Of a stretch of DNA of 64,000 nt, positions 1 to 60,900 are shown piece after piece (position 1 is the stretch's first letter; every line of letters begins with the position of its first letter). This DNA comes from Bolinopsis microptera (lineage: Eukaryota; Ctenophora; Tentaculata; Lobata; Bolinopsidae), in the NCBI RefSeq assembly GCF_026151205.1, contig NC_087083.1, positions 9,979,460 to 10,043,459 of the forward strand, given 5' to 3'. Position numbers and translations under genes: made by a program. Under the pieces are notes generated by a model. That model was not told the origin of the DNA. It ran no database searches and was given only the letters and a program-made list of their open reading frames with translations.

Positions 1-555
1 TTCCTTTTCACCCTTTTGAAAAAAGGCAATAGTGAAAGGTTACGAATGGTCGTTTTTGCAGAAAAACGTGGATTTTGGAGATTGCAGTAGGTGGGTCTGA
101 GTATGTCGTGTTCCTTACTTCCGTCCGTTACCAAGCAACGAAAAAGTTGCGCGCGCGCGAGGATTGCTTGCGGAGATGTGATGTATAGATAGCCTGTGAT
201 CTATGAATGCGCGGCGCGACTGTGTTTTAATGTATATGATGCATGTAATGTATAAATATAATATTACTATTAGGTAATACGCCCAATTTGTACGTGGCAC
301 GCGTAGTGTATTGATTTGTACACGAGTATAGTTTACCTTTGCTGATCATTTCTTGAATTACAGATACAAGTTAAGTTCTACGGCAATTGAACTGAATTTT
401 TTCCCGTATTTGATGCATAATTTATCAATATTATTAATATTATGAAGATTGAAGTGAGCTGATTGGAGCTTATACTTAAATTTATAGTAAATGTGAAATG
501 GAAATCTAGCGTCCGCCAAAACGAAACAACGGGCGCAATTCTTGTTGGAACAGGT
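1..555. other. Sequence upstream of the DSL-repeat gene; no exon identified
   Basis: The Delta-like coding region that follows lacks a signal peptide, so a first exon is expected upstream. I looked for an ATG followed by a hydrophobic stretch and a GT donor on the plus strand and found none here. The signal-peptide exon is therefore either left of the window or lost. The stretch is AT-rich with a short GCGCGCGCG run near 151-160. Confidence 0.5.
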
Positions 556-2790
556 ACAGTGCAGCGGACGAGGACAAATTCAATTTTTGTGGTACAATGA
601 TACGAGGAACATGGATTCCCAGGGTCATCCGAGTGGCGGAGGTGGATTCAGTGATTTCTTCTTCCGTCCTGTGAACATATTAGATGAAGACGAAAATATC
701 CTCTACGGCATAACAGAAGCAAGGACCGAAGAACAGTACTCGAACACACAAACCCTCGATTTATCTACGATAGAAGTACTGAAAAATCCATTAGAGATAG
801 CCTTGCCTACCGATAAAACTGTCTATCTTTACATCAGCGTTTATGATGAAGACGGAGCGACAGACGCATTCACAAGAACCATAAAAAGATGTGGGTTCCA
901 TTTGGGAGCATACATGCCGGAACGGGATGGACTAACAAATCATATTCCTCTTCTGATTGGGAAGCCACTCTCTTCTTCAAGTACAGATTACTTCAATGTG
1001 ATATTAATTTCACCGGAAACGGCTGTAATTCCTGCAGAACCAACTATTACCCAAAACGGGAGTGCACTGTTCTCTGCGATGAAACCTCTAGCTATACCTG
1101 CAATGAAGAAGGAGGAAAAGACTGCAAAGCCAACTATTATCCAGAAAATGAGTGTACGGTATTCTGTAATGAAACCTCTAGCTATACCTGCAATGAAGAA
1201 GGAGGAAACGTCTGCAAAGCCAACTATTATCCAGAAAATGAGTGTACGGTATTCTGTAATGAAACCTCTAGCTATACCTGCAATGAAGAAGGAGGAAAAG
1301 TCTGCAAACCAAACTATTATCCAGAAAATGAGTGTACGGTATTCTGCAATGAAACCTCTAGCTATACCTGCAATAATGAAGGAGGAAAAGTCTGCAAAGC
1401 CAACTACTATCCAGAAAATGAGTGCACTGTTCTCTGTGAAGAAACATCTAGCTATACCTGCAATGAAGAAGGAGGAAAAGTCTGCAAACCAAACTATTAT
1501 CCAGAAAATGAGTGTACGGTATTCTGCAATGAAACCTCTAGCTATACCTGCAATAATGAAGGAGGAAAAGTCTGCAAAGCCAACTATTATCCAGAAAATG
1601 AGTGCACTGTTCTCTGCGAAGAAACATCTAGCTATACCTGCAATGAAGAAGGAGGAAAAGTCTGCAAAGCCAACTATTATCCACAAAATGAGTGTACGGT
1701 ATTCTGTAATGAAACCTCTAGCTATACCTGCAATAATGAAGGAGGAAAAGTCTGCAAACCAAACTATTATCCACGAAATGAGTGTACGGTATTCTGTAAT
1801 GAAACCTCTAGCTATACCTGCAATAATGAAGGAGGAAAAGTCTGCAAAGCCAACTATTATCCAGAAAATGAGTGCACTGTTCTCTGCGAAGAAACATCTA
1901 GCTATACCTGCAATGAAGAAGGAGGAAAAGTCTGCAAAGCCAACTATAATCCAGAAAATGAGTGTACGGTATTCTGTAATGAAACCTCTAGCTATACCTG
2001 CAATGAAGAAGGAGGAAAAGTCTGCAAACCAAACTATTATCCAGAAAATGAGTGTACGGTATTCTGCAATGAAACCTCTAGCTATACCTGCAATGAAGAA
2101 GGAGGAAAAGTCTGCAAAACCAACTATTATCCAGAAAATGAGTGTACAGTATTCTGTAATGAAACCTCTAGCTAAACCTGCAATAATGAAGGAGGGAAAG
2201 TCTGCAGAACCAACTATTACCCAAAAGGAGAGTGCAATGGTTTCTGTGATGAAACCTCTAGCTATACCTGCAATGAAGAAGGAGGAAAAGTCTGCAAAAC
2301 CGATTACTACCCAGAAAATGATTGCAGAACATACTGCAGCCCAGTAGAAGGAAATTACACCTGTAACCAAGTCACTGGGCACAAAATATGCGCGGAAAGG
2401 AGAACCGGAGAAGAATGTGATGAGTGTGTGGAACATCATTTCGGCGAGACCTGCTCCAACTTCTGTAAGGTTAATGAGGACTACATTTGCTCTGAAATAG
2501 GCGAAATAGTCTGCAATGATCCAGGAAAAGATTGCAAGAAAAGTAACATTCCAATTATACTTATAGCAGGGATCGGAGCTGGAGTGGCTGTGTTTTTAGT
2601 TGTGACCTTGCTCGGTGTCTGCAGATACTACAAGAAAGATGTGATCGATGAAGAGGGCAACACCTTGGACTTAACCCCACATAAGGTAATGCCACCTGCT
2701 GAAGTAGTTACCAGCCCAGAAGATGAGGATCATATCTACATGGATCAATTGGATTGTCTGTACTCTGGAGATGACCCAAGTGCTCTCTAG
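556..2790 (+). CDS. Delta/Serrate-like transmembrane protein with a tandem array of DSL-like modules
   Basis: Probable single-pass membrane protein of the DSL (Notch-ligand) type. The first part, in frame 2 and starting after a candidate acceptor at about 555, resembles the MNNL/C2 domain of Delta and Jagged (GQIQFLWYNDT, then PLEIALPTDKTVYLYISVYD). Near 875-890 the reading frame changes to frame 1, where SIHAGTGW and KYRLLQCDINFTG match the MNNL-DSL junction. Fifteen units of about 90 bp follow (1033-2388), with the pattern C-x9-C-x3-C-x7-C-x7-C and the NYY signature of DSL domains. A last diverged DSL-like unit (HHFGETCSNFC) follows. Then come a membrane segment (about 2545-2620), basic stop-transfer residues and a tail of about 50 residues ending PSAL. 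A TAA at 2173-2175 replaces the TAT Tyr codon in the thirteenth unit. The frame change and this stop mean the locus is a pseudogene, carries sequence errors, or is spliced around them. No EGF repeats are seen. A poly(A) signal AATAAA lies at 2853. Confidence 0.7.
1033..2388 (+). repeat. 90-bp coding tandem repeat (15 units, DSL-like module)
   Basis: Conserved Cys codons starting at 1033 recur every 90 bp through 2293; only the last unit is longer (96 bp). Each unit encodes about 30 residues containing five cysteines and NYYPENEC or a close variant. Units alternate between a TVFCNETSS type and a TVLCEETSS type, as expected from unequal crossing-over of higher-order blocks. The antisense strand is also open over most of the array; that long open frame is a by-product of the repeat and not a gene. 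Confidence 0.95.
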
Positions 2791-3444: not shown

Positions 3445-4644
3445 CTAAGTACCAGGACACTGGCATGCGAAAGCTCTGTGTCTACTCCTATGATCAAACG
3501 AATCATCAAACTGACCATCCCTGGAGATAGCCAGATAGTGTTGAGCCTGGTTCTTGATATACTCAGCGTTGTCAGGGTTAGGGTTCCTCCAGTTCATGTT
3601 CTTGTAGTACTCAATAGGACTTCCATCCACCCACTTCCACTCACCCTCCTCCTCTTCATCAGTTCCACCCAGCCAGATCCAGTTCTCCTTATCCCACAGT
3701 TTCAAACCGTCAGCTTTACTCCCGAGGAAGTAATCCGCAGATTTAATAATCTCTTTAACCTCAGCATCAGATCTCACTTTAGCTAGCTCCAATCCTGCAG
3801 CCTCACACGAAGCTTTAGCCTGGCTCCAGGTTTCAGAGCTCGCGGAGATGATGTACTTACCTTGGTAATCACAAGCGTAGGGATGGGTCTTGTACTTGAA
3901 GGTATCATCCCAGATACCTTGGTGGTTGATTCTCATTTGGTTCTGGAGATACTTCACTCCGTTTTTCTTGTCGGTTCGCTGATCTGGCTGGTGCTTCATC
4001 CATTTGTGGAACTCCTTGGGGCTTGATCCGTCAGCAGCCCAGGACCAGTCCTCTGCGTTGTATTTCTTGCTCTTTTTGCTTCCATCGTTGTTCTTTGTCT
4101 TCCTGAGTCCAGCCCAAACCCAATGGTCAGCAGCCCATTTTTGTGACTTCCCCTTGTAAGGATAAGCCATTTGCAGAAGGAGTTTTAGGTCGGAGTTTTT
4201 GCCATCGTCGTTTACTGTGGCCAGGTGGCCCTTTTGTGCGTCTCCCATACCAATGTCGAAATTCTGCAGGTTGAGGTGAGATCAAACTTTGAAATTAAAT
4301 TTTATCTGATCAACAAGTCGTTTTGTAAGTTCACACTGTTCAGTGTGAACTTACAATTTTAAACATCGTCTCAATCCGATATAACTATATAAACTTTATC
4401 TTCAATCTACAACTATCACAATTCATTTAAATTTGAGATAAAATATTGGACAGTAAAATATTCGACAGACCTGACAGTTCTTCTCAGCAGTATCATAGTC
4501 GACCATTTCACTGAACAAGACCAGTTGACACGTGGGGAACACTCCAGAGTCCAGGTTCTTCAGCAGTTTTTTCAACCCGCCCAACTGGACTTTGTTAAGA
4601 GCCAGCGAGGTGCCAACCAGGCAAAATAACAGAAAACACTTCAT
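3445..4644 (-). CDS. Secreted protein with two C-type lectin domains
   Basis: Two exons. Exon 1 (4471-4644) carries the ATG, a signal peptide (MKCFLLFCLVGTSLA) and the start of the first lectin domain, ending in phase 0 at NCQ before a GT donor. Exon 2 (3445-4263) follows a cctgcag acceptor and runs to the TAG. The product is about 330 residues. Domain 1 (about residues 40-190) shows WVWAGLRK, DWSWADGS-like sequence, HQPD, IWDD and the final YACDYQ. Domain 2 (about 195-330) shows SWSQAKASCEAAG-like sequence, WIWLGGTDEEEEGEWKWVDGS and FACQC. In C-type lectins QPD goes with galactose-type and EPN with mannose-type binding. Domain 1 has QPD, whereas domain 2 has NPD, so sugar preference is uncertain. 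Likely role: secreted carbohydrate recognition or immune recognition. Confidence 0.9.
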
Positions 4645-5705
4645 TATGCTTCTAGAATATGCTTGCCGCTGCTTCTAATGAGTTTAACTGATAAATGAAC
4701 AAGGCAAACGAAAGGTGTGGTGAGTTTTTGAAGCGGTTTCTGTGAGGGGCAGTTCTAACCCCCTTGAAATTTACAGTTCATCATGGAAAGTTGTCGGGTT
4801 ATATTTTTTACGGTCAGGCTGAAACGTGGTGTTGGACGAATGATTTGTAGTAAGGGTGGATTGAGTTGGTCAATCTGATGCTGTAGAGTGGAGCTAATTC
4901 TTAGAACTGTAAACAATAAGGCAACTGTAAAAACTATATAGTTGTTTGTAAAGGCAACTGTAAAAATTATATAGTTTCTAGGAAAAATAGGGGGCTCGTT
5001 GAGCATCAAGTTTCACATGGAATCAAAATATTTTTTATTGGACAAGGTTTTTAGTCTGAAGTTTTACTAATGGAACTGAAAAGTTATATACGCAAATAAT
5101 ATTATAAAAAAATATTATTGGTGATATTATTTTTAGCAAAACAAGGGCTCAAATGTAAATACGGAGTCTGGAGTTTGTACTAAAGAGTTACTAATTCACG
5201 GGGGTTATAACTTTTAGTTGGAAACTAGCGTTAGTTTCGCTTTTTTACTCTTTGGGCGAGTTTTAAATCTTTGGCGGCTCAAATATTGTTGGCTTTAAGT
5301 TCTGTTTCCTCTCAAAATGAAACCAAACATATTAAAACAGGAAAACTTAGGCGGTATTGCAAAAATCTAAAAATCCTCAGCGTTTTTGTCAAAAGCTCCG
5401 TCAAGGATCCTAATCATTCGGAAAGTTCAAAAATAAAGTTAACTTTTTTTCACAATAATTGGACTTGGACAGATTGTGTAGGAAAGAACTAATGAAGAGA
5501 ATTAATAGTTATACATCATATTTCACACAACTTTAGATCAACTCATTGACTTTCTAGCCATGATGTTTTGAGGCAATAAGTCGAGGACTAATAAAGGCTA
5601 ATGAATGGATGAAATTTAATTCATAATTTTCGCTAAGTCAGTAAGTCCGCCATGGCTAAAAATATTAATTTTTCATTATTGGGGGGGGGGGGGGGGGGTA
5701 TTCAC
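4645..5705. other. Gap between the lectin gene and the last visible TPP1-like exon
   Basis: AT-rich DNA with a partial direct repeat at about 4915-4980 (aaggcaactgtaaaaa-tatatagt, twice) and an 18-base G run at 5681-5698. The missing 3' exons of the TPP1-like gene should lie here if that gene were intact. On the minus strand I see no stretch resembling the catalytic Ser region of sedolisins. Confidence 0.55.
5681..5698. repeat. G homopolymer, 18 bases
   Basis: An uninterrupted run of 18 G lies just beyond the donor of the last visible TPP1-like exon. Such runs are common breakpoints in assemblies and may mark where the 3' exons were lost. Confidence 0.95.
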
Positions 5706-8700
5706 CTGAATATGTGAGGTATTTGAGAGGTGTTACTGAGGTCCAACAGCCACTCCAGAAACGGTTCCTGGCCTTTATTTAACCTGCAAAAGATTACTAT
5801 CCGTTACTCATGTTCTCAGAACATTATCATAATCATCAAACTTTAATCAAATGTTAATCAAATGTTAATAATTAATTAAATGTTAATAGGGTTTCTGCAA
5901 CACATATTTCAGCATTTCGTTGATATTAAGACCTTTTTATTTGCTGCGTTATTTGACTTATTTAAATTATTAAAAATAGCAACTTATAGCTAGTTACGTG
6001 ATAATTTTACACCACGTGCAACATGACGTCACACCACGTGCAACATGACGTCACACCACGTGCAACATGACGTCACACCACGTGCAACATGATGTCACAC
6101 CACGTGCAACATGACGTCACACCACGTGCAACATGACGTCACACCACGTGCAACATGACGTCACACCACGTGCAACATGATGTCACACCACGTGCCACTT
6201 TACACTTACCCGCCGGTGCTCCAGAAAGTAGTAGAAACATTAGCACCCAGTGACATAATGTACTGAACATCCAGATTAGCTTCAAGTCCTGCTTTACCAC
6301 TGTTAGGTCCAACTTCGTGAGAGATCTGGGGAAATTACGTCACAAATTACGTCACAAATTACGTCACATTTACGTAACAAATTACGTCACATTGTTCCAC
6401 TTGTCAAATTGAAATAAGATTTGGAGTTATGAAAATTAGTATTATTATTTAATATGGCGGTAGAAATTACTTGTAGATTGTAGATCAATTGACATTAAAT
6501 TGACCTACATTATCACATTATAAATTGGAATTTTGAATAATAACAAAAAACTAAATCAATATTTTCCAATAAGTGAAAATAAAAAGAAAGTGAAAATGGA
6601 AAATAAAAGAAAGTGAAATAAAAGAAAAGGCAAAGCTACGTAATTGCGGCAAGAAACCAGAAAGCTACTCCAGTCACCAACCTTATTCAAATGGGGGAAA
6701 CCCTTGCCAAAATGGCTCATAAACTTTGTCAGGTCCCCAGCGGAGTAGAACTGTTTAAGGAACTGGGCGGTAGCCTGGTATAGTAGGGTTATTGGTTCAA
6801 AATATTCTATAATCGATAACTTTTTAGGAATTATCGAGATATTATCGGTTATCGGCGATATTACCTGGCATCCCAATGCGCGACCTTCTTTCCGAGCTTC
6901 TCGCATTGAGACTGAGACTACGTGAGAGTAGCGAGCAATAGACTAGCAAGCTGGTAATCGGCGATAATATGGTCATAAAATTTAATTGAGCTCATAATAG
7001 ATATAATATCTCGTTGCAAACACTACCTGGGAGTTGTTAGCGTTTGTAGCCACGTTGTCACTGACGTTGTAACGCTTGCGGAGTGTGTCGGGGTGGACCC
7101 CGTAACGGAACGCGGAGAGGTCGTCCGGTAACGGCATCCTGGAGTTGGGATGAGTTACAGGAGCATGTTAAGCGCTGTTGCTACCTTACTGTTGCTACGT
7201 ACTGTTGCTACGTACTTTACAGTGAATACTTAACTCAGACACCACTTGGACGGACTTTGAAATTAACACTCGAGGGCCATCTCTTAAGTCGTCCGCCAAA
7301 ATGTAAACAGATATTAAAATGACCGGACATTAAAATGAACGCTATAAGGGCCTCTATCGTCCAATTAATGTCCGTTCAAATAAAGTCCGATAAGATATAC
7401 TCACGTCTGTTTTATCTTGAGTTTGCTCTCCACGTTAGGAAGCCTGTGAACTCCTCCTATGAAGTCTAGTTTACTTGCTATTCTCTTAGGAACTGTGTAC
7501 TCCTGAGATACAGGTTACAATTCTGCAGTCCGCTCAGAGAGGGATTATGCGCGCTCAGCCAACAAACTTTGTTAAATGTATATTTATTTATCGAATTATC
7601 TGATATATAATATATTATGAAGGAGTAAGAGATTTATACCGCCATTATACATCATTTTGACTGTGTAAACTGCCCCAAAATACTCACAAACCGCTCTTGT
7701 ATTTACCTGAGTTGCTCTGATGATGACGTTATCCTTTTGTACGCTATGTTGAAAATAACCGAAGTTAGTTTCCAGCAGTTGTTCTGCCACACCAACAGTG
7801 ACCCTGTGAAGTCACAACATGAACTTACAACCTTTTGTTACCTGTTTTCAGGATTTATTTCGGTGTTGAATTTGAAACATTTCCGAAACTGGGACTTTGT
7901 TGGTGGTGAGATATGTACATTGTACACTGTACATTGTACATAGTACATTGTACACTGTACATTGTACACTGTACATTGTACATTGTACATTGTACACTGT
8001 ACATTGTACACTGTACATTGTACATTGTACATTGTACAGTCATATTCAACTACTTATTAAGTTATTATAGTGTTGTTCAACTACTACATGACATGGTTAA
8101 CTGAGAACAAACCTGCACTTGAGGAAATCTCGGGTTTCAATAAGAGAGCACGAGTCCACATTGTAGTGGTGTAACCAAACCATTATATCCTGAGAAACAT
8201 AACACGTGACGTCATACCACGTGACATGACGTCACACCACGTGACATTACGTCACACCACGTGACATTACGTCACACTAGAGACATAACACACGTAACAC
8301 ATGGAATATGTTTGGTGCGGTTTGAGAAATTGACAATCGTGGTTACACCACGTGATGTGACGTCATATTATTCAATTGACGTCAATTGACCAATTTACGT
8401 GACGTCATACCACGTGACGAACATCATTACCTTGATATCCTGAGGATGCGGCTGAACAATCTCCTTAACCTCCTCTAAACTCAGAAACTTGCCGTATCGA
8501 GCTGACAGAGGATCAGATACACTCCAGAACAGCTGTGTGAGGTCGTCTGTGTTCCTTTGTTTCAGGGCCAATACCAGGGTTGTTAGGTCCGACTTCAGGG
8601 CGTGTCTGATGGGGGATTGTGAGGTAATGTGATTATGTGGACTCGTGAAGTCACGTGTTGGACTCGTGAAGTCACGTGTTGGACTCGTGACCTCACGTGT

Positions 8701-10026
8701 TGGACTCGTGACCTCACGTGTTGGACTCGTGAAGTCACGAGTTGTACTCGTGACGTCATGTGTTGGACTCGTGAAGTCACGTGTTGTACTCGTGACGTCA
8801 TGTGTTGGACTCGTGACGTCATGTGTTGAACTCGTGAAGTCACGTGTTGGACTCGTGACGTCATGTGTTGGACTCGTGAAGTCACGTGTTGGACTCGTGA
8901 AGTCACGTGTTGGACTCGTGAAGTCACGAGTTGTACTCGTGACGTCACGAGTTGTACTCGTGACGTCATGTGTTGGACTCGTGAAGTCACGTGTTGTACT
9001 CGTGACGTCATGTGTTGGACTCGTGACGTCATGTGTTGGACTCGTGAAGTCACGTGTTGGACTCGTGAAGTCACGTGTTGGACTCGTGACGTCACGTGTT
9101 GGACTCGTGACCTCACGTGGTATGCATAAACAACTGTGTGAGGTGGTCTGTGTTACTTTGTTTCAGGGCCAATACCAGGGTTGTTAGGTATAACTTTAGA
9201 GTTTAGATCTTGTCTGAGGGGGAATTGATGAGTGACGTCATGGGATTAGCTGTGATCTTATGTCACGTACTGGGCTTGTTATGTCACGTGTTGGCAGGTG
9301 TTAGGCTTTTAATGTCACTTGAAAATAATAGGACGCTGCTGCAGCAAGCCCATTGGTTCCTCGAAGTCACGTGTTAAATCAGATGTTCATGCTGAGTTAG
9401 TTTACTACTACGTAGCACTATTCACTACAGACAGGAGTTGTTCTGTTCTAGTTTTCTAATGAGTTCTCATTTTCCAAAGACGAGTGCTCAACTGACATGC
9501 AGGAACATTTAAACACTTTTACAAAGACAACCTAAATTAACAAGCAAACGAATCGTATCGTAATATCGATAAAATAATAATGCACCATTGATTGTATTTG
9601 CTTTATCGATATCATGAAACGGAATTCGTTAATTGCCAACTGATTTGAAATGTTTGATTTGTTATGTCACTACATGGCACGTCACGTGGCACGTGGTCAC
9701 AGTTAAGGGGTCGTTAACAATTAACATATTACGTAATCACTGAGGGGGTTCCAAATATGTAATATTAACACAATAGCTGTGTGTAAACGTTTTCAACTAC
9801 AACGAAACGCAGTATGTCAATGTGAACGACCTCTAACGTGCGCGTGACATTTAGTCAATTAATAATTAATTATGAGCTGATCTTACCCGACAAAGTCCCA
9901 GTTGTCTCTACCAGGTAGAAGTTGTTTCCCCTCTACCCGAGCCCTGCCTCTGTTCACAGTAGATACCATCTCCACTCCCCCCACACACAGTGCCAGTGTC
10001 AGCACTGCCAGAACGTACTGTTTCAT
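5706..10026 (-). CDS. TPP1: Tripeptidyl-peptidase 1-like serine protease (sedolisin, S53), 3' part missing
   Basis: Nine exons in consistent phase: 9887-10026 (signal peptide [14 protein letters not shown]), 8431-8605, 8113-8189, 7707-7803, 7405-7502, 7027-7138, 6682-6774, 6210-6325 and 5706-5783. They encode about 328 residues. The inhibitory pro-domain is recognisable ([37 protein letters not shown]), as is the start of the peptidase domain ([48 protein letters not shown]). In TPP1 the catalytic Glu and Asp sit in the E-x3-D of this region; here they are about E279 and D283. The last visible exon ends in phase 2 with a good donor. The exons for the oxyanion Asp and catalytic Ser are not found before the lectin gene. 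TPP1 is a lysosomal exopeptidase releasing tripeptides. This copy is either truncated, misassembled next to the poly-G run, or continues beyond position 1 around the two genes to its left. Confidence 0.88.
6003..6200. repeat. 22-bp satellite with E-box and CRE palindromes (TPP1-like intron)
   Basis: About nine copies of a unit reading acaccacgtgcaacatgacg-tc, each with CACGTG and usually TGACGTCA (some units TGATGTCA). It lies in the intron between the exons at 6210-6325 and 5706-5783, ending only about 10 bases from a donor site. A short acgtcacaaatt series follows at about 6335-6390. Confidence 0.9.
7913..8038. repeat. TGTACATTGTACACTG short-period repeat
   Basis: An array built from TGTACATT and TGTACACT octamers. 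TGTACA is palindromic, so both strands give open frames (the tyrosine- or cysteine-rich reading frames here are spurious). It lies in the intron between the TPP1-like exons at 7707-7803 and 8113-8189. Confidence 0.9.
8200..8420. repeat. Degenerate CACGTG/TGACGTCA repeats (TPP1-like intron)
   Basis: Several copies of cacgtgacattacgtcacac and related forms, interrupted by unique sequence, lie between the exons at 8113-8189 and 8431-8605. They belong to the same E-box/CRE repeat type as the arrays at 6003, 8640, 10798 and 14380. Confidence 0.75.
8640..9120. repeat. 21-bp satellite gtgttggactcgtgaagtca-c, about 23 copies
   Basis: Units of 21 bp vary mainly at the centre (gtgaagtcac, gtgacgtcat, gtgacctcac), so some units contain TGACGTCA and most contain CACGTG at the junction. 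Because 21 is divisible by three, frames on both strands stay open (TSRVQHV and similar); these are not genes. The array lies in intron 1 of the TPP1-like gene, close to exon 2. Confidence 0.95.
9130..9222 (-). pseudogene. Partial duplicate of TPP1-like exon 2
   Basis: The stretch from ctgtgtgaggtggtctgtg to ttgtctgaggggg matches the 5' half of exon 2 and its acceptor (8527-8615) with scattered differences, including tgtttcagggccaataccag, which is identical. It lacks the 3' half of the exon and its diverged end no longer reads in frame, so it is a dead exon copy. The 21-bp satellite lies exactly between the real exon and this copy. Confidence 0.8.
9707..9833. mobile_element. PIF/Harbinger-like MITE, copy 3 (127 bp)
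   Basis: Starts ggggtcgtt and ends aacgacctc, with inverted ends and an internal acatattacgtaatcac. It is flanked by TAA on both sides (9704-9706 and 9834-9836), a TWA duplication typical of PIF/Harbinger. It shares ends with the copies at 12329 and 19491. Confidence 0.7.
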
Positions 10027-12835: not shown

Positions 12836-20384
<7,549 letters not shown>

Positions 20385-30800: not shown

Positions 30801-32541
30801 CCTGTAACTTATTATACAGTGAGATGAACACCTGTAACCACTCATTACTGATAGCGCCTGTAACTAACCAGTAACCATGATATAATAAGTTTAATATTAA
30901 GTGTAACGTACGTGTATTTCAGAGGAACAAGGAGAATATAAGGAGTATAATAATTAATAACACGTGTGTATTTCAGAGGAACAAGGAGAATATAAGGAGT
31001 ATAATAACACGTGTGTATTCCAGAGGAACAAGGAGAATATAAGAAGTATAATAACACGTGTGTATTTCAGAGGAACAAGGAGAATATAAGGAGTATAATA
31101 ACAAGTGTGTATTTCAGAGGAACAAGGAGAATATAAGGAGTATAATAACACGTGTGTATTCCAGAGGAACAAGGAGAATATAAGGAGTATAATAACACGT
31201 GTGTATTTCAGAGGAACAAGGAGAATATGAGCCGTATAATAACACGTGTGTATTTCAGAGGAACAAGGAGAATATAAGGAGTATAATAACACGTGTGTAT
31301 TTCAGAGGAACAAGGAGAATATAAGGAGTATAATAACACGTGTGTATTTCAGAGGAACAAGGAGAATATAAGGAGTATAATAACACGTGTGTATTTCAGA
31401 GGAACAAGGAGAATATGAGGAGTATAATAACACGTGTGTATTTCAGATGAACAAGGAGAATATAAGGAGAATAATAACACGTGTGTATTTCAGAGGAACA
31501 AGGAGAATATAAGGAGTATAATAACACCTGTGTATTTCTGAGGAACAAGGAGAATATAAGAAGTATAATAACACGTGTGTATTTCAGAGGAACAAGGATA
31601 ATATAAGGAGTATAATAACACGTGTGTATTTCAGAGGAACAAGGATAATATAAGGAGTATAATAACACGTGTGTATTTCTGAGGAACAAGGAGAATATGA
31701 GCCGTATAATAACACGTGTGTATTTCAGAGGAACAAGGAGAATATAAGGAGTATAATAACACGTGTGTATTTCAGAGGAACAAGGAGAATATAAGGAGTA
31801 TAATAACACGTGTGTATTTCAGAGGAACAAGGAGAATATAAGGAGTATAATAACACGTGTGTATTTCAGAGGAACAAGGAGAATATAAGGAGTATAATAA
31901 CACGTGTGTATTTCAGAAGAACAAGGAGAATATAAGGAGTATAATAACACGTGTGTATTTCAGAGGAACAAGGAGAATATAAGGAGTATAATAACACGTG
32001 TGTATTTCAGAGGAACAAGGAGAATATAAGGAGTATAATGACACGTGTGTATTTCAGAGGAACAAGGAGAATATAAGGAGTATAATAACACGTGTGTATT
32101 TCAGAAGAACAAGGAGAATATAAGGAGTATAATAACACGTGTGTATTTCAGAGGAACAAGGAGAATATAAGGAGTATAATAACACGTGTGTATTTCAGAG
32201 GAACAAGGAGAATATAAGGAGTATAATAACACGTGTGTATTTCAGAGGAACAAGGAGAATATAAGGAGTATAATAACACGTGTGTATTTCAGAGGAAGAA
32301 GGAGAATATAAGGAGTATAATAACACGTGTGTATTTCAGAGGAACAAGGAGAATATGAGGAGTATAATAACACGTGTGTATTTCAGAGGAACAAGGAGAA
32401 TATAAGGAGTATAATAACACGTGTGTATTTCAGAGGAACAAGGAGAATATGAGGAGTGGAGTGGATGGAGCAGAGGTTGTTTATGAAACTCTCTTTCCCA
32501 CAATGTACTCCAGCACCTACGATAAGAGCTTTCATCAGTAG
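27829..32541 (+). CDS. Five-exon gene of unknown function (about 191 residues)
   Basis: Exons 27829-27895, 28673-28798, 29090-29249, 29403-29517 and 32434-32541 join in phase. The product begins MSDVRRFCTDLTRLPSPVYK and ends TLFPTMYSSTYDKSFHQ. It has no signal peptide, no membrane segment and no domain I recognise; it is basic and rich in Ser, Pro, Tyr and His. Pro- and Tyr-rich C-termini of this kind occur in small axonemal microtubule inner proteins, a weak hint only. Exon 3 uses the inner acceptor (cctcacag), because the outer one gives a stop. An alternative ending exists: a donor at 29431 joined to an acceptor at 29478 would run to a stop at 29648. I prefer the form ending at 32541, because its last exon has a well-formed end. 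Its acceptor is the last copy of the 47-bp satellite. Confidence 0.6.
30913..32458 (+). repeat. 47-bp satellite containing a 3' splice site, about 33 copies
   Basis: The unit reads gtgtgtatttcagaggaaca followed by aggagaatataaggagtata-ataacac. Each copy has a pyrimidine tract and AG identical to the acceptor used by the last exon at 32434. The first 25 bases or so of that exon form part of the unit. The antisense strand has no stops in most units, giving long LYSPCSSEIHTCYY-type frames that are not genes. Confidence 0.95.
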
Positions 32542-49854: not shown

Positions 49855-50515
49855 GAGGCACTGTACTGGCCCTGTACTGGCCCTGTGCTGGCCCTGTGCT
49901 GGCCCTGTGCTGGCCCTGTGCTGGCCCTGTGCTGGCCCTGTACTGGCCCTGTACTGGCCCTGTGCTGGCCCTGTGTTGGCCCTGTGCTGGCCCTGTGCTG
50001 GCCCTGTACTGGCCCTGTACTGGCCCTGTGCTGGCCCTGTACTGGCCCTGGACTGGCCCTGTGCTGGCCCTGTACTGGCCCTGTACTGGCCCTGTGCTGG
50101 CCCTGTACTGGCCCTGTACTGGCCCTGTACTGGCCCTGTGCTGGTCCTGTACTGGCCCTGTACTGGCCCTGTGCTGGCCCTGTACTGGCCCTGTACTGGC
50201 CCTGTACTGGCCCTGTGGCCTGTACTGGCCCTGTACTGGCCCTGTACTGGCCCTGTATTGGCCCTGTACTGGCCCTGTGGCCTGTACTGGCCCTGTGGCC
50301 TGTACTGGCCCTGTGGCCTGTACTGGCCCTGTGGCCTGTACTGGCCCTGTACTGGCCCTATACTGGCCCTGTGGCCTGTACTGGCCCTGTACTGGCCCTG
50401 TACTGGCCCTGTACTGGCCTGTACTGGCCCTGTACTGGCCCTGTGGCCTGTACTGGCCCTGTACTGACCCTGTACTGGCCCTGTGCTGGCCCTGTACTGG
50501 CCCTGTACTGGCTGA
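49855..50515. repeat. 12-bp satellite ccctgtactggc, about 54 units
   Basis: The unit alternates between ccctgtactggc and ccctgtgctggc, with some gcctgtactggccctgtg irregularities in the second half. All three plus-strand frames are open over most of the array (YWPC, TGPV, LAL peptides) because the unit has no stop in any frame. Not a gene. Confidence 0.95.
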
Positions 50516-54349: not shown

Positions 54350-54830
54350 CATATATCTGATATCGGTTACTATTAGTATTCCTTGATATCGGTTACTATT
54401 AGTATTCCTACATATCGGGTACTATTAGTACCTATTCCTTGTGCATATCGGGTACTATTAGTATTCCTAGTACATATCGGGTACTATTAGTATTCCTAGT
54501 ACATATCGGTTACTATAATTAGTATTCCTTCATATCGGTTACTATTAGTATTCCTTCATATCGGTTACTATAATTAGTATTCCTTCATATCGGTTACTAT
54601 TAGTATTCCTTCATATCGGTTACTATAATTAGTATTCCTTCATATCGGTTACTATTAGTATTCCTTCATATCGGTTACTATAATTAGTATTCCTTCATAT
54701 CGGTTACTATAATTAGTATTCCTTCATATCGGTTACTATTAGTATTCCTTCATATCGGTTACTATAATTAGCATTCCTTCATTATATCGGTTACTATAAT
54801 TAGTATTCCTTCATATCGGTTACTTTTTGC
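54350..54830. repeat. 26-28-bp satellite catatcggttactattagta-ttcctt
   Basis: About eighteen units. Two length classes, tactattag and tactataattag, alternate, pointing to higher-order duplication. Confidence 0.95.
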
Positions 54831-57305: not shown

Positions 57306-57509
57306 AGTTATAATCGCTCTCGTGCGAGCAGCAAGGTTACCAGGTTAAGGTTTTTCCTACCCATGAACTGTATAATCTTGCAGCCCTACATGTTACATAG
57401 GGCTGGGTGTTAGTCAGTCAGGGAACTCTTACAGTTGGTATGTCATCTTAATGTCATCATACATCGTGCTGTGTTATTGAAGAGCTGATGAAGTTTAATC
57501 TTTTAGTGT

Positions 57510-57935
57510 TTGTTCTAGAACCTGAGGGTTTTGTTCTAGAACCTGGGGGTTTTGTTCTAGAACTCGGGGGTTTGTTTTAGAACCTGGGGGTTTGTTCTAG
57601 AACCTGGGGGTTTGTTCTAGAACCTGGGGGTTTGTTCTAGAACCTGGGGGTTTGTTCTAGAACCTGGGGGTTTGTTCTAGAACCTGGGGGTTTGTTCTAT
57701 AAGCTGGGGGTTTTGTTCTAGAACCTGGGGGTTTTGTTCTAGAACCTGGGGTTTTGTTCTAGAACCTGGGGGTTTGTTCTAGAACCTGGGGATTTTGTTC
57801 TAGAACCTGGGGGTTTGTTCTAGAACCTGGGGGTTTGTTCTAGAACCTGGGGGTTTGTTCTAGAACCTGGGGGTTTGTTCTAGAACCTGGGGGTTTGTTC
57901 TATAAGCTGGGGGTTTTGTTTTTGAACCTGAGGGT
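57510..57935. repeat. 20-bp satellite gggggtttgttctagaacct
   Basis: About twenty units of 20 or 21 bp; a few have tctataagct instead of tctagaacct, at regular distance, which indicates block duplication. Confidence 0.95.
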
Positions 57936-60900
57936 TGCGCGGTCCCACATCCAGAAATACAGCTGATTGGCAGGTGATTATGCGTGTAAATATTAGATTT
58001 TGGAGGAAATTTTGGTGCTAAATCTTTAGTGGGGGGGGGGGACATTAATCTGCGAGGAAATTTAAAACGTTTTGGATGTGGAAGTGAAGTTCTACCCTGT
58101 TATTAGTTGAGCTGTGTTGTGGGGTGTTCAGATCTGTATCATTATCAAATTTAGATTTTATATTTTACAATTTTATCGGCACATGGTACTTTCGACCTTA
58201 TATATTAATTTTTGAAAACGAACTCGTAGGAAATTTTCAAAGGTTTCATGATTACTTTATTTTCAACATTGTAACTCTTGAAGTTCATAACAACTTTTCC
58301 AAATATTTGAAACAGCTCCATCCCTACCAATGTAAGATTAGTTTAGTCAGTATTCTTTCACAGAAGCCAGCCAAGTGGGTAAGTATAATGGGTAAGTAAG
58401 AAGCACTAAGTAAGTAAGAAATCGCATCGACTGCATCAGGTACTATTATAATTTATACTTGTATAACGTATACCACTGGTGCGATACAGTAGTTTCCATG
58501 GAAACACTCATAATTACCACCCTCAAATATTAGAGATGAACTCCAATTTTTTCCCGGACTCACACGACCCAATGCACTTTTTGTAAGGTTAAGCAATTAT
58601 TATAGAGAATAGTTATTTAAATAGTATTTTGATGCACCACACGCACCAGGCACATATTATATACACCAACAATGGTATCAGTAATCAGTACACACTGCAA
58701 TACAATAATGAGTACCACTCAAACCGTAACTACTCCGATAAGGGTGTTACACACATTGGTACAATATGGGCCCCGACTTACATAAGTATACATAGTTGTA
58801 CACTGCATGTGTGCGTGTAAATCGTAATTCGATTTTACATTTTAGGACTTCATACCACGGTATTTACGCTCAAAGTTGTTGCAAATTTTGGGAGTGTGGA
58901 TTTTTTTTCCTGCACTGCCCGGTAGTTTAAAGTGTGTTGGATGTTGATATTATTAACAGGTGAAACTGCTAATAATTGTTTAGTTGGTTTTTTGCGAGTT
59001 TTAACATTTTGCTGCAAAGTTATACCAAGTTCACTTCACTTATTGAAAGTTTGTACAGATTACTTTTAGTACCCCCGCGGTTTTAAAAGTTACGGCCCTT
59101 TATACTACTGTTTATGACTACTTCTGACAATTTCGTATTTGTTGAATAATTCTCTTTGTGCTATTTTTCTGCGACTATCAAGCTGCCGTATAAGATCTTG
59201 GGAGTTCGTTAGGCGGACGCTATAATATTTCCATCCACTGCCTTTTTAAGTATCTTATTCATAATATCAATGCCTTTTAAATCTTGATTTATGATTCTGT
59301 TCTGCTGAGGCCGAATAGCATCCTCAAGATATTGTATTATTAGATATTATATTATCAGAACACCAAATTCTCGACCAGCGTCCAGGTAATCCAGAACCAA
59401 ATTAGAATCGGCCCACCTAAATTCCAGACGCGCTCAGAGCTGACGACAAAATAATCACAGTAATTCCTAGGGCATCCAATTCTAAACATATTCCTGGCCG
59501 GAATTTGACATTTGGAGTGTCAAACTGGTCCCAATTTTAAGGTTTCGATGTACCATTACTTATACGATACGTATCTATATATAATATATACCTGATATTT
59601 ATCTATTCGTATCTTATGTTATAGTTATACAATATACGTATCCGCTGAGCAACTTTTGAGCAACTTTTGAGGCAAGCTTTTTCTGCCTTGAGAAACAACG
59701 TACAACTCTTGAAGTTGCTGGGAAAACTTGGCTCAGCTCAGAGAATCGTGATACGCTGACAGTCTCAACTGTTTTAGTTACTGAAATTAATTATAATTTA
59801 ATTAGTCTTAGTAACTTGTTAAATCAGTAATAGTTCACGATGTCTGCCTCTTTTTAGATGCGCTTGTTAGTTACTAGATAAAATCATCGTGATCTGTTAA
59901 CTTAGTAATCGGTGGAATGCATGGACCAAGGCACTATTATACCTAGTATTTTATTATCTGACTTTGCAGTCTTGATTCGGACAAGAATCTAAAATATTAA
60001 AATCCTGTTTTGTCAACCAGTATCTCAGTATCTGTATCACTGTGTTCATTATGTTAAGGTGGTTATAGATTCGTTTACAAAGCCCTGCAGAGTTGGTCTG
60101 TGAATTTGGAGTTTTAAATATTATTAGTATTGCACTGCAATTTTGAGCTTTTAGTACCAAACTTTTCGTGGCTGTGCTACAGTCTATCTACTGGATTTTT
60201 ATTAAAATCATTCCAATCACGGTTACTTTCTGTTATGTACCACACTTCAAAATTTTAATTCCGCTATGAGGTGCCCAATTTTTTTCCAAAGTTGAAAGCT
60301 TTACTCGTTGCATCACCTGATCTTTAATATAACCTCGACCAGGAACAAATGTAACGCGAATTTATGTGCATCATATCTGATTAATATCAGATACTAAGAG
60401 ATACTAGCATGTGCAACATCTTTATTGTCCTGGAATGTGGTCAAAAATTCTCACAGTTTAAAACACTGTGACATGACATGAGAAAATTCTGCTTGTTATT
60501 TAATCAATAAGTTGAGGCAGTGCTGAAATTTCCGACATCAATGTCACGTTTTTATTCCAGGTATTTTTGAGTCGGTTTCGATACCTTGCTTATAGAAATA
60601 ATTTTAATGTTGAACGTGACAAACTTCTTAAAAAAAACGTAGGATATTCGATAAACTGTTTTTTTGTCCATGTTTCTATTTTCCAATATCTATTTCATAA
60701 ACCAATTATCTCACCTAGAAATAATGTGTCTCTTTATTAATTGTGCTATATTTAACAGTTTTTGATTAGAAATTGATTATTGACTTTGATCAGGAAGCTT
60801 CACTAATTGGATTGATTAGATCACCCAATTATATCACCCAATTAGACCACCCAATTAGATCACCCTATCACGTTATATCTTGATTGTGGAGATCTTATCC

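Follow-up and report, generated by a model that had tools for sequence, protein, structure and literature searches.

Why would a gene carry about fifteen DSL modules in a row, and is the protein that it describes a Notch ligand? This question arises from a locus near the start of the window, the stretch of 64,000 nucleotides that was analysed as a whole (C12:9979460-10043459 in the 264.65-Mb genome of the ctenophore Bolinopsis microptera). A preliminary description had proposed a single protein in frame 1 with an MNNL/C2-like head, a roughly 15-fold array of DSL-like units, a membrane segment and a short tail, and had seen in it a new architecture, perhaps a multivalent Notch ligand. The parts of the locus, with the evidence for each, are as follows.

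545..885, plus strand: first part of the C2/MNNL-like head domain, frame 2 (translation, homology limit, matches to two sister genes)
886..996, plus strand: remainder of the head domain, frame 1 (the frame-1 ORF 850-2175 picks up the sister-gene sequence again)
997..1035, plus strand: initial half DSL module fused to the head, CDINFTGNGCNSC (translation, 25-head alignment A1)
1033..2418, plus strand: 15 chained DSL units (tandem-repeat detection, cysteine positions, Pfam DSL)
2173..2175, plus strand: in-frame TAA within unit 13 (frame-1 translation)
2425..2535, plus strand: final DSL module with six cysteines (strongest Pfam DSL stretch of the ORF 2176-2787, at residues 84-121; cysteine positions)
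2548..2619, plus strand: predicted membrane segment (hydrophobic stretch in the translation, homologous segments in relatives' ORFs)
2620..2790, plus strand: shortened cytoplasmic tail; the YST(L/P) series that the second sister gene has is absent (translations compared by eye)

The repeats are DSL modules. The tandem DSL array as a whole covers 997-2535; tandem-repeat detection finds a period of 90 bases between 1032 and 2321, with 14.3 copies and 89% matches. The Pfam DSL model (PF01414) scores 66.4 bits on the ORF 850-2172 (11 stretches) and 33.6 bits on the ORF 2176-2787 (three stretches), and up to 243.5 bits in relatives of the gene. EGF_laminin, where it is listed in the window and in five scanned relatives, reaches 14.7-25.8 bits compared to 33.6-243.5 bits for DSL, and we therefore reject a laminin-EGF array; EGF_laminin exceeds its own cut-off only in L031 (25.8 bits), and each of the five relatives has a much higher DSL score. 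Among 25 stretches consisting of a head and its first module, 22 give a DSL hit with E<=1 (the best at 2.3e-7), and each of two laminin-EGF models weakly matches six (the best at 2.3e-4). The reported absence of EGF repeats also holds: the window ORFs have no Pfam EGF match except EGF_laminin at 14.7 bits, below its cut-off, and none follows the arrays of the five relatives scanned.

The count of about 15 units stands, but the five cysteines ascribed to each do not. Units 1-14 are compact, with four cysteines per 30 residues (spacings 10, 4, 8, 8), and unit 15 has spacings 10, 4, 9, 9 and a sixth cysteine of its own. Units 4 and 6 are identical, as are units 7 and 10. Across units 2-13 the mean dN is 0.053 and the mean dS 0.231, hence the divergence among units is constrained on average. 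Chance repeats are rejected by this constraint together with the DSL score. Predicted structures of window sequences have a mean pLDDT too low for use, 34.3 for the array (alignment A2, nine rows) and 40.8 for the head fragment (single sequence).

As a single frame-1 protein the window copy survives only in part. The array and the tail do lie in frame 1, but the head is in frame 2 up to about 885, the reading frame shifts from 2 to 1 near 886, and the TAA interrupts unit 13. Immediately upstream are two sister genes in a better state, and the window head matches them at 81% and 80%. Both read without interruption across the site that corresponds to the frame break. Hence an intron as the cause of the break is rejected. 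Sister gene A (L027 5276-6706) has a signal-peptide exon with a donor site (by eye), a 192-base intron and then the main exon, and itself seems imperfect, with the remainder of its tail series in a different frame (L027 6637-7056). The second sister gene (L027 9280 to L028 1430) encodes 717 aa, including a tail with a YST(L/P) series. A signal peptide was recognised by eye in one of the two genes only. We place the start of the window head at 545, approximately where homology to the second exon of the sister genes begins (only at about 547). Upstream, homology to the second sister gene ends at L028:2119, and a signal-peptide exon homologous to that of sister gene A was not found upstream of the window copy.

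The frame break, the TAA, the missing homologous first exon and the shortened tail all point to a pseudogene with an expanded repeat that is now functionless, and we consider this the likely state of the feature. Against this reading, divergence among the units of the array is constrained on average, so that the expansion came before function or overlapped with it. Furthermore, a pseudogene in the window says nothing about relatives with long open frames, so that this reading is compatible with a functional receptor family elsewhere in the genome. The window copy is then probably a decaying member of its family, although the frame break and the TAA could possibly also reflect a null allele or an error in the assembly.

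The surroundings of the locus contain several other features. Just downstream of the array, on the minus strand (3445-4281 and 4423-4674), lies a gene with an intron whose translation, judged by eye, resembles a secreted protein that has two C-type-lectin-like domains. An intronless frame of 504 aa on the plus strand (14521-16035) has a BTB/BACK-type look by eye. A 47-base tandem repeat occupies 30955-32457 (32 copies, 96% matches), and further tandem arrays lie at 8638-9119, 49857-50512, 54360-54824 and 57508-57936. Upstream of sister gene A, a long repeat (L027 3400-3870) reads as runs of QL or NC dipeptides on the two strands.

The stacked DSL modules are real, but the proposed new architecture is no single oddity. 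With the window head as query, this one genome yields 33 matches, of which 29 have E<0.001; they fall in about 28 places, the window among them, and many stand in tandem on C7, C12, C4, C2 and C3. The end of the array finds 135 matches, and at least 72 matches in the genome code for DSL (150 of 214 candidates were scored). Long uninterrupted relatives exist, for example of 1103 aa (L029 4565-7873) and 1096 aa. The former has 14 DSL stretches (243.5 bits), and its sole match in the PDB at E<0.01 is Jagged-2 (E 0.0049). For a profile of the family the best six PDB matches are all Notch ligands; the DSL part accounts for these matches, whose E-values are weak (0.0022 to 0.075). We found no relevant report of arrays of DSL domains among the open-access papers searched.

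As described for the window, a hydrophobic segment and a tail follow the array at about 2548-2790. Homologous segments score as membrane segments, followed by a tail, in 16 of 27 parsed ORFs of relatives. The other 11 end without a membrane segment, and the family may therefore include secreted, incomplete or broken proteins. Two loci on C7 have a structure of their own. In a relative of the 1103-aa gene, about 1 kb of extra, insertion-like sequence divides a DSL unit (L030 2579-3581, C7:6235079-6236081). At C7:1726518-1734164 four copies of one DSL-family fragment interrupted by stops have equal scores and a spacing of 2,425 bases, a recent tandem duplication.

Do these modules look as if they bind Notch? 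In JAG1 the binding face includes R201, R203 and F207, carried by the loop between the third and fourth cysteine, as described in PMC3415683, and the exchange F207A is reported to cut Notch binding to background (PMC3415683, PMC3888931). This loop has 11 residues in JAG1, JAG2, Serrate and Delta. We measured it in 141 units from 27 ORFs of at least 180 aa with at least two units and at least 3.5% cysteine, outside the window and L056-L058. It has 7 residues in 45 units, 8 in 93, 9 in two and 11 in one, and RxR follows the third cysteine in none of the 141. All 16 units of the window have a loop of 7 or 8 residues, and so do 29 units of L004-L006 and L056-L058; the latter loci and L001-L006 were parsed separately from the 141 units. 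An N-glycosylation sequon stands in the loop region of 81 of the 141. The arrays of the family thus lack the canonical Notch-binding loop, and of all the observations this one speaks most strongly against a canonical Notch ligand.

The loop does have 11 residues in L001-L003. Two of these loci, L002 and L003 (C3:3444652-3453753), are possible Notch-ligand candidates, and L003 has sushi/CCP-like exons beside its DSL (by eye), another unusual DSL architecture.

The spacing of the cysteines suggests how the modules are chained. According to PMC3415683, the disulfides of DSL domains pair consecutive cysteines, and the loop between cysteines 1 and 2 superimposes on that between cysteines 5 and 6. 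The fifth cysteine doubles as the first cysteine of the next unit in units 1-14 of the window and in 39 of the 141 units of relatives. Since the last cysteine is common to adjoining units, one loop can serve two modules, and two neighbouring modules may well have such a loop in common.

The Pfam MNNL model (PF07657) does not match the window ORFs, any of the 25 family heads or the whole genome; control genomes are equally without a match, so that the genome result is not evidence of absence. The 25 heads of alignment A1, which excludes the window head as well as head matches that are broken or partial, have the rough consensus G.GEI.F..Y.D..NC...CDFYFK, VWDED and YRLLSC. By eye, CDFYFK resembles CDTYFK of JAG1, VWDED resembles AWDSSND and YRLLSC resembles IRVTC. 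With the DSL part cut away, we compared the head profile over 130 aligned columns with seven Notch-ligand chains of known structure. No shuffle reaches the global score, among 500 of columns and 400 of blocks, and the local score is reached by 0 of 500 and 3 of 400, respectively; the hhalign probability is just 15-18%. Against only three Notch ligands the same profile gives a weak result (hhalign), with the score reached by 3 of 200 shuffles locally and 27 of 200 globally. The profiles hence support a probable relationship between the family head and the C2/MNNL domain of Notch ligands, and for the claimed MNNL/C2-like head the support comes from this comparison, not from Pfam.

The tails carry a second signature. 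Sixteen tails contain 159 tyrosines and 87 YxxL/I/V motifs, compared to 24.3 +/- 4.5 after shuffling (maximum 42 among 1000 shuffles). Because some genes are near-duplicates, the test was rerun with 10 non-duplicate tails, which have 62 motifs compared to 17.7 +/- 3.8 (maximum 30 among 2000). A single tail has up to 12. Adjacent motifs are 5 residues apart in several tails (e.g. YSTI-x5-YATV), and VYSRLDR, MYADVAFV and ATYITV are found again in the tails of different genes. The tail of L054 contains two YVPM motifs, which look like PI3-kinase sites. The window copy's own tail is without the YxxL/I/V series. A simple pattern for the catalytic and activation loops of kinases finds nothing in any locus examined, and a Pfam scan of five relatives finds no kinase domain.

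Head and tail evolve at different rates. In four pairs of paralogues pN/pS is 1.02 in the head and 0.38 in the tail (g1/g3), 0.79 and 0.44 (A/B), 0.98 and 0.45 (L029b/L030), and 0.82 and 0.22 (L029a/L030c, where the head begins inside the domain and the L030 sequence is incomplete at its end). In all four the head evolves faster than the tail, and the summed counts differ (Fisher p = 0.001). Since L029b/L030 and L029a/L030c share one segmental duplication on C7, the independence of the pairs is incomplete. A fifth pair, L044/L047, provides a head value only (0.69). A pN/pS near 1 in the head could reflect relaxed constraint instead of diversification.

The DSL part can follow yet another course. 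Genes 1 and 3 of the cluster at C7:1.71 Mb have a dS of 0.022 in the DSL part compared to 0.116 in the heads and 0.145 in the tails. A nearly identical DSL part between more diverged heads and tails suggests an exchange of DSL cassettes. Their DSL part has a dN/dS of 1.08 on 17 changes, which counts against a uniform constraint on DSL modules.

We propose, with a probability of roughly 0.55, that these genes form a ctenophore family of surface receptors with tyrosine motifs, made from Notch-ligand modules, and that the window member is decaying. A family protein would begin with a signal peptide and a C2 head, continue with 2 to about 15 DSL modules that form a rod, and end with a single membrane segment and a tail of repeated YxxL/I/V motifs; it would most likely serve as a recognition receptor on the cell surface. 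The variable head would touch a partner or a membrane surface, and the disulfide-rich rod would determine the reach. Within the rod the last loop of one module would be the first loop of the next, and unequal exchange of 30-residue units would lengthen and shorten it. After phosphorylation by tyrosine kinases, the motifs of the tail would recruit SH2 proteins. What the sequences show is the identity of the modules, the size of the family in one genome, the loss of the Notch-binding loop, the excess of tail motifs, the faster evolution of the heads and the broken state of the window copy; the location at the cell surface, the binding of partners, the phosphorylation and the signalling we infer.

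The order of the parts, a probable C2 domain and then DSL, is that of Delta and Jagged, and the family could instead be the Notch ligands of ctenophores, with the head and the first DSL modules binding Notch and the arrays making the protein multivalent. A receptor for such ligands is likely present, since LNR repeats occur on C9 together with EGF repeats and ankyrin-like exons; an LNR gene on C2 we take to be GNPTAB-like. A survey of two ctenophores reports Notch and neither Delta nor Jagged (PMC8166818), which would leave the place of the ligand vacant. A review finds no diagnostic domains in Mnemiopsis but names a Delta orthologue in Pleurobrachia bachei (PMC4810162), so that a ligand may be there after all. 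The multivalent ligand of the preliminary description fares badly because the modules of the arrays have no Notch-binding loop: the loop that carries R201, R203 and F207 in JAG1 (PMC3415683) is shortened in 140 of 141 units. The five scanned relatives have no EGF repeats after their arrays, tails rich in YxxL/I/V point to receiving instead of sending a signal, and the window gene is broken. With their 11-residue loop, L001, L002 and L003 are better candidates. Ergo we consider it quite improbable that the family consists of Notch ligands.

The same anatomy would also suit adhesive or endocytic surface proteins, in which DSL rods adhere cells or particles and the YxxL/I/V motifs are AP-2 uptake signals, for example in engulfment or feeding. 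YxxL/I/V can also act as an endocytic sorting motif, and YxxPhi fits sorting signals. But up to 12 motifs in a tail exceed what sorting needs, and the two YVPM of L054 look like PI3-kinase sites. The head lends this alternative some weight: the head domain of JAG1, and Jagged-type C2 domains in general, are described as binding phospholipid in a calcium-dependent manner (PMC3888931), and many of the 25 aligned heads retain the acidic VWDED-type loop. All in all, an adhesive or endocytic role is unlikely, and we prefer a family of recognition receptors.

How would such receptors compare to known proteins? With Delta, Serrate and Jagged they share a probable C2/MNNL-type head, DSL after it and a single membrane segment. 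Unlike these ligands, they have 2-15 DSL modules instead of one, tails rich in YxxL/I/V, no RxR/F Notch-binding loop and, in the five relatives scanned, no EGF repeats. Receptors of the ITAM/ITIM type (Draper/MEGF10, immunoreceptors) also combine extracellular modules, a single membrane segment and repeated YxxL/I motifs in the tail; they use EGF or Ig modules whereas the family uses DSL, and the 5-residue spacing in several family tails is shorter than the usual ITAM spacing. A Delta-like receptor tyrosine kinase of Capsaspora owczarzaki likewise has more than one DSL domain (two) and is a presumed receptor tied to tyrosine signalling, but it is described with EGF repeats and a kinase domain of its own (PMC4810162), and a simple kinase pattern finds nothing in the loci examined here.

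For the question of how the Notch pathway arose in early animals, on which the reports on ctenophores conflict (PMC8166818 vs PMC4810162), L001-L003 are concrete ligand candidates with the canonical loop length. DSL and MNNL domains are also reported from choanoflagellates (PMC6040629), and therefore the modules are older than animals. The short loop in the 141 family units, with one exception, and in 29 others shows large-scale reuse of Notch-ligand modules, apparently for another job. A chained four-cysteine unit, in which one loop would serve two modules, is a simple way to make a rod.

More tentatively, and with less than even odds, the C2-DSL part of a Notch ligand may have given rise to a ctenophore repertoire of variable recognition receptors, akin to immune or self-recognition systems, with fast-evolving heads, with DSL cassettes that grow in number and pass from one tandem gene to another, and with tails that carry tyrosine motifs. 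If true, a variable receptor repertoire would exist in a lineage that is possibly sister to all other animals.
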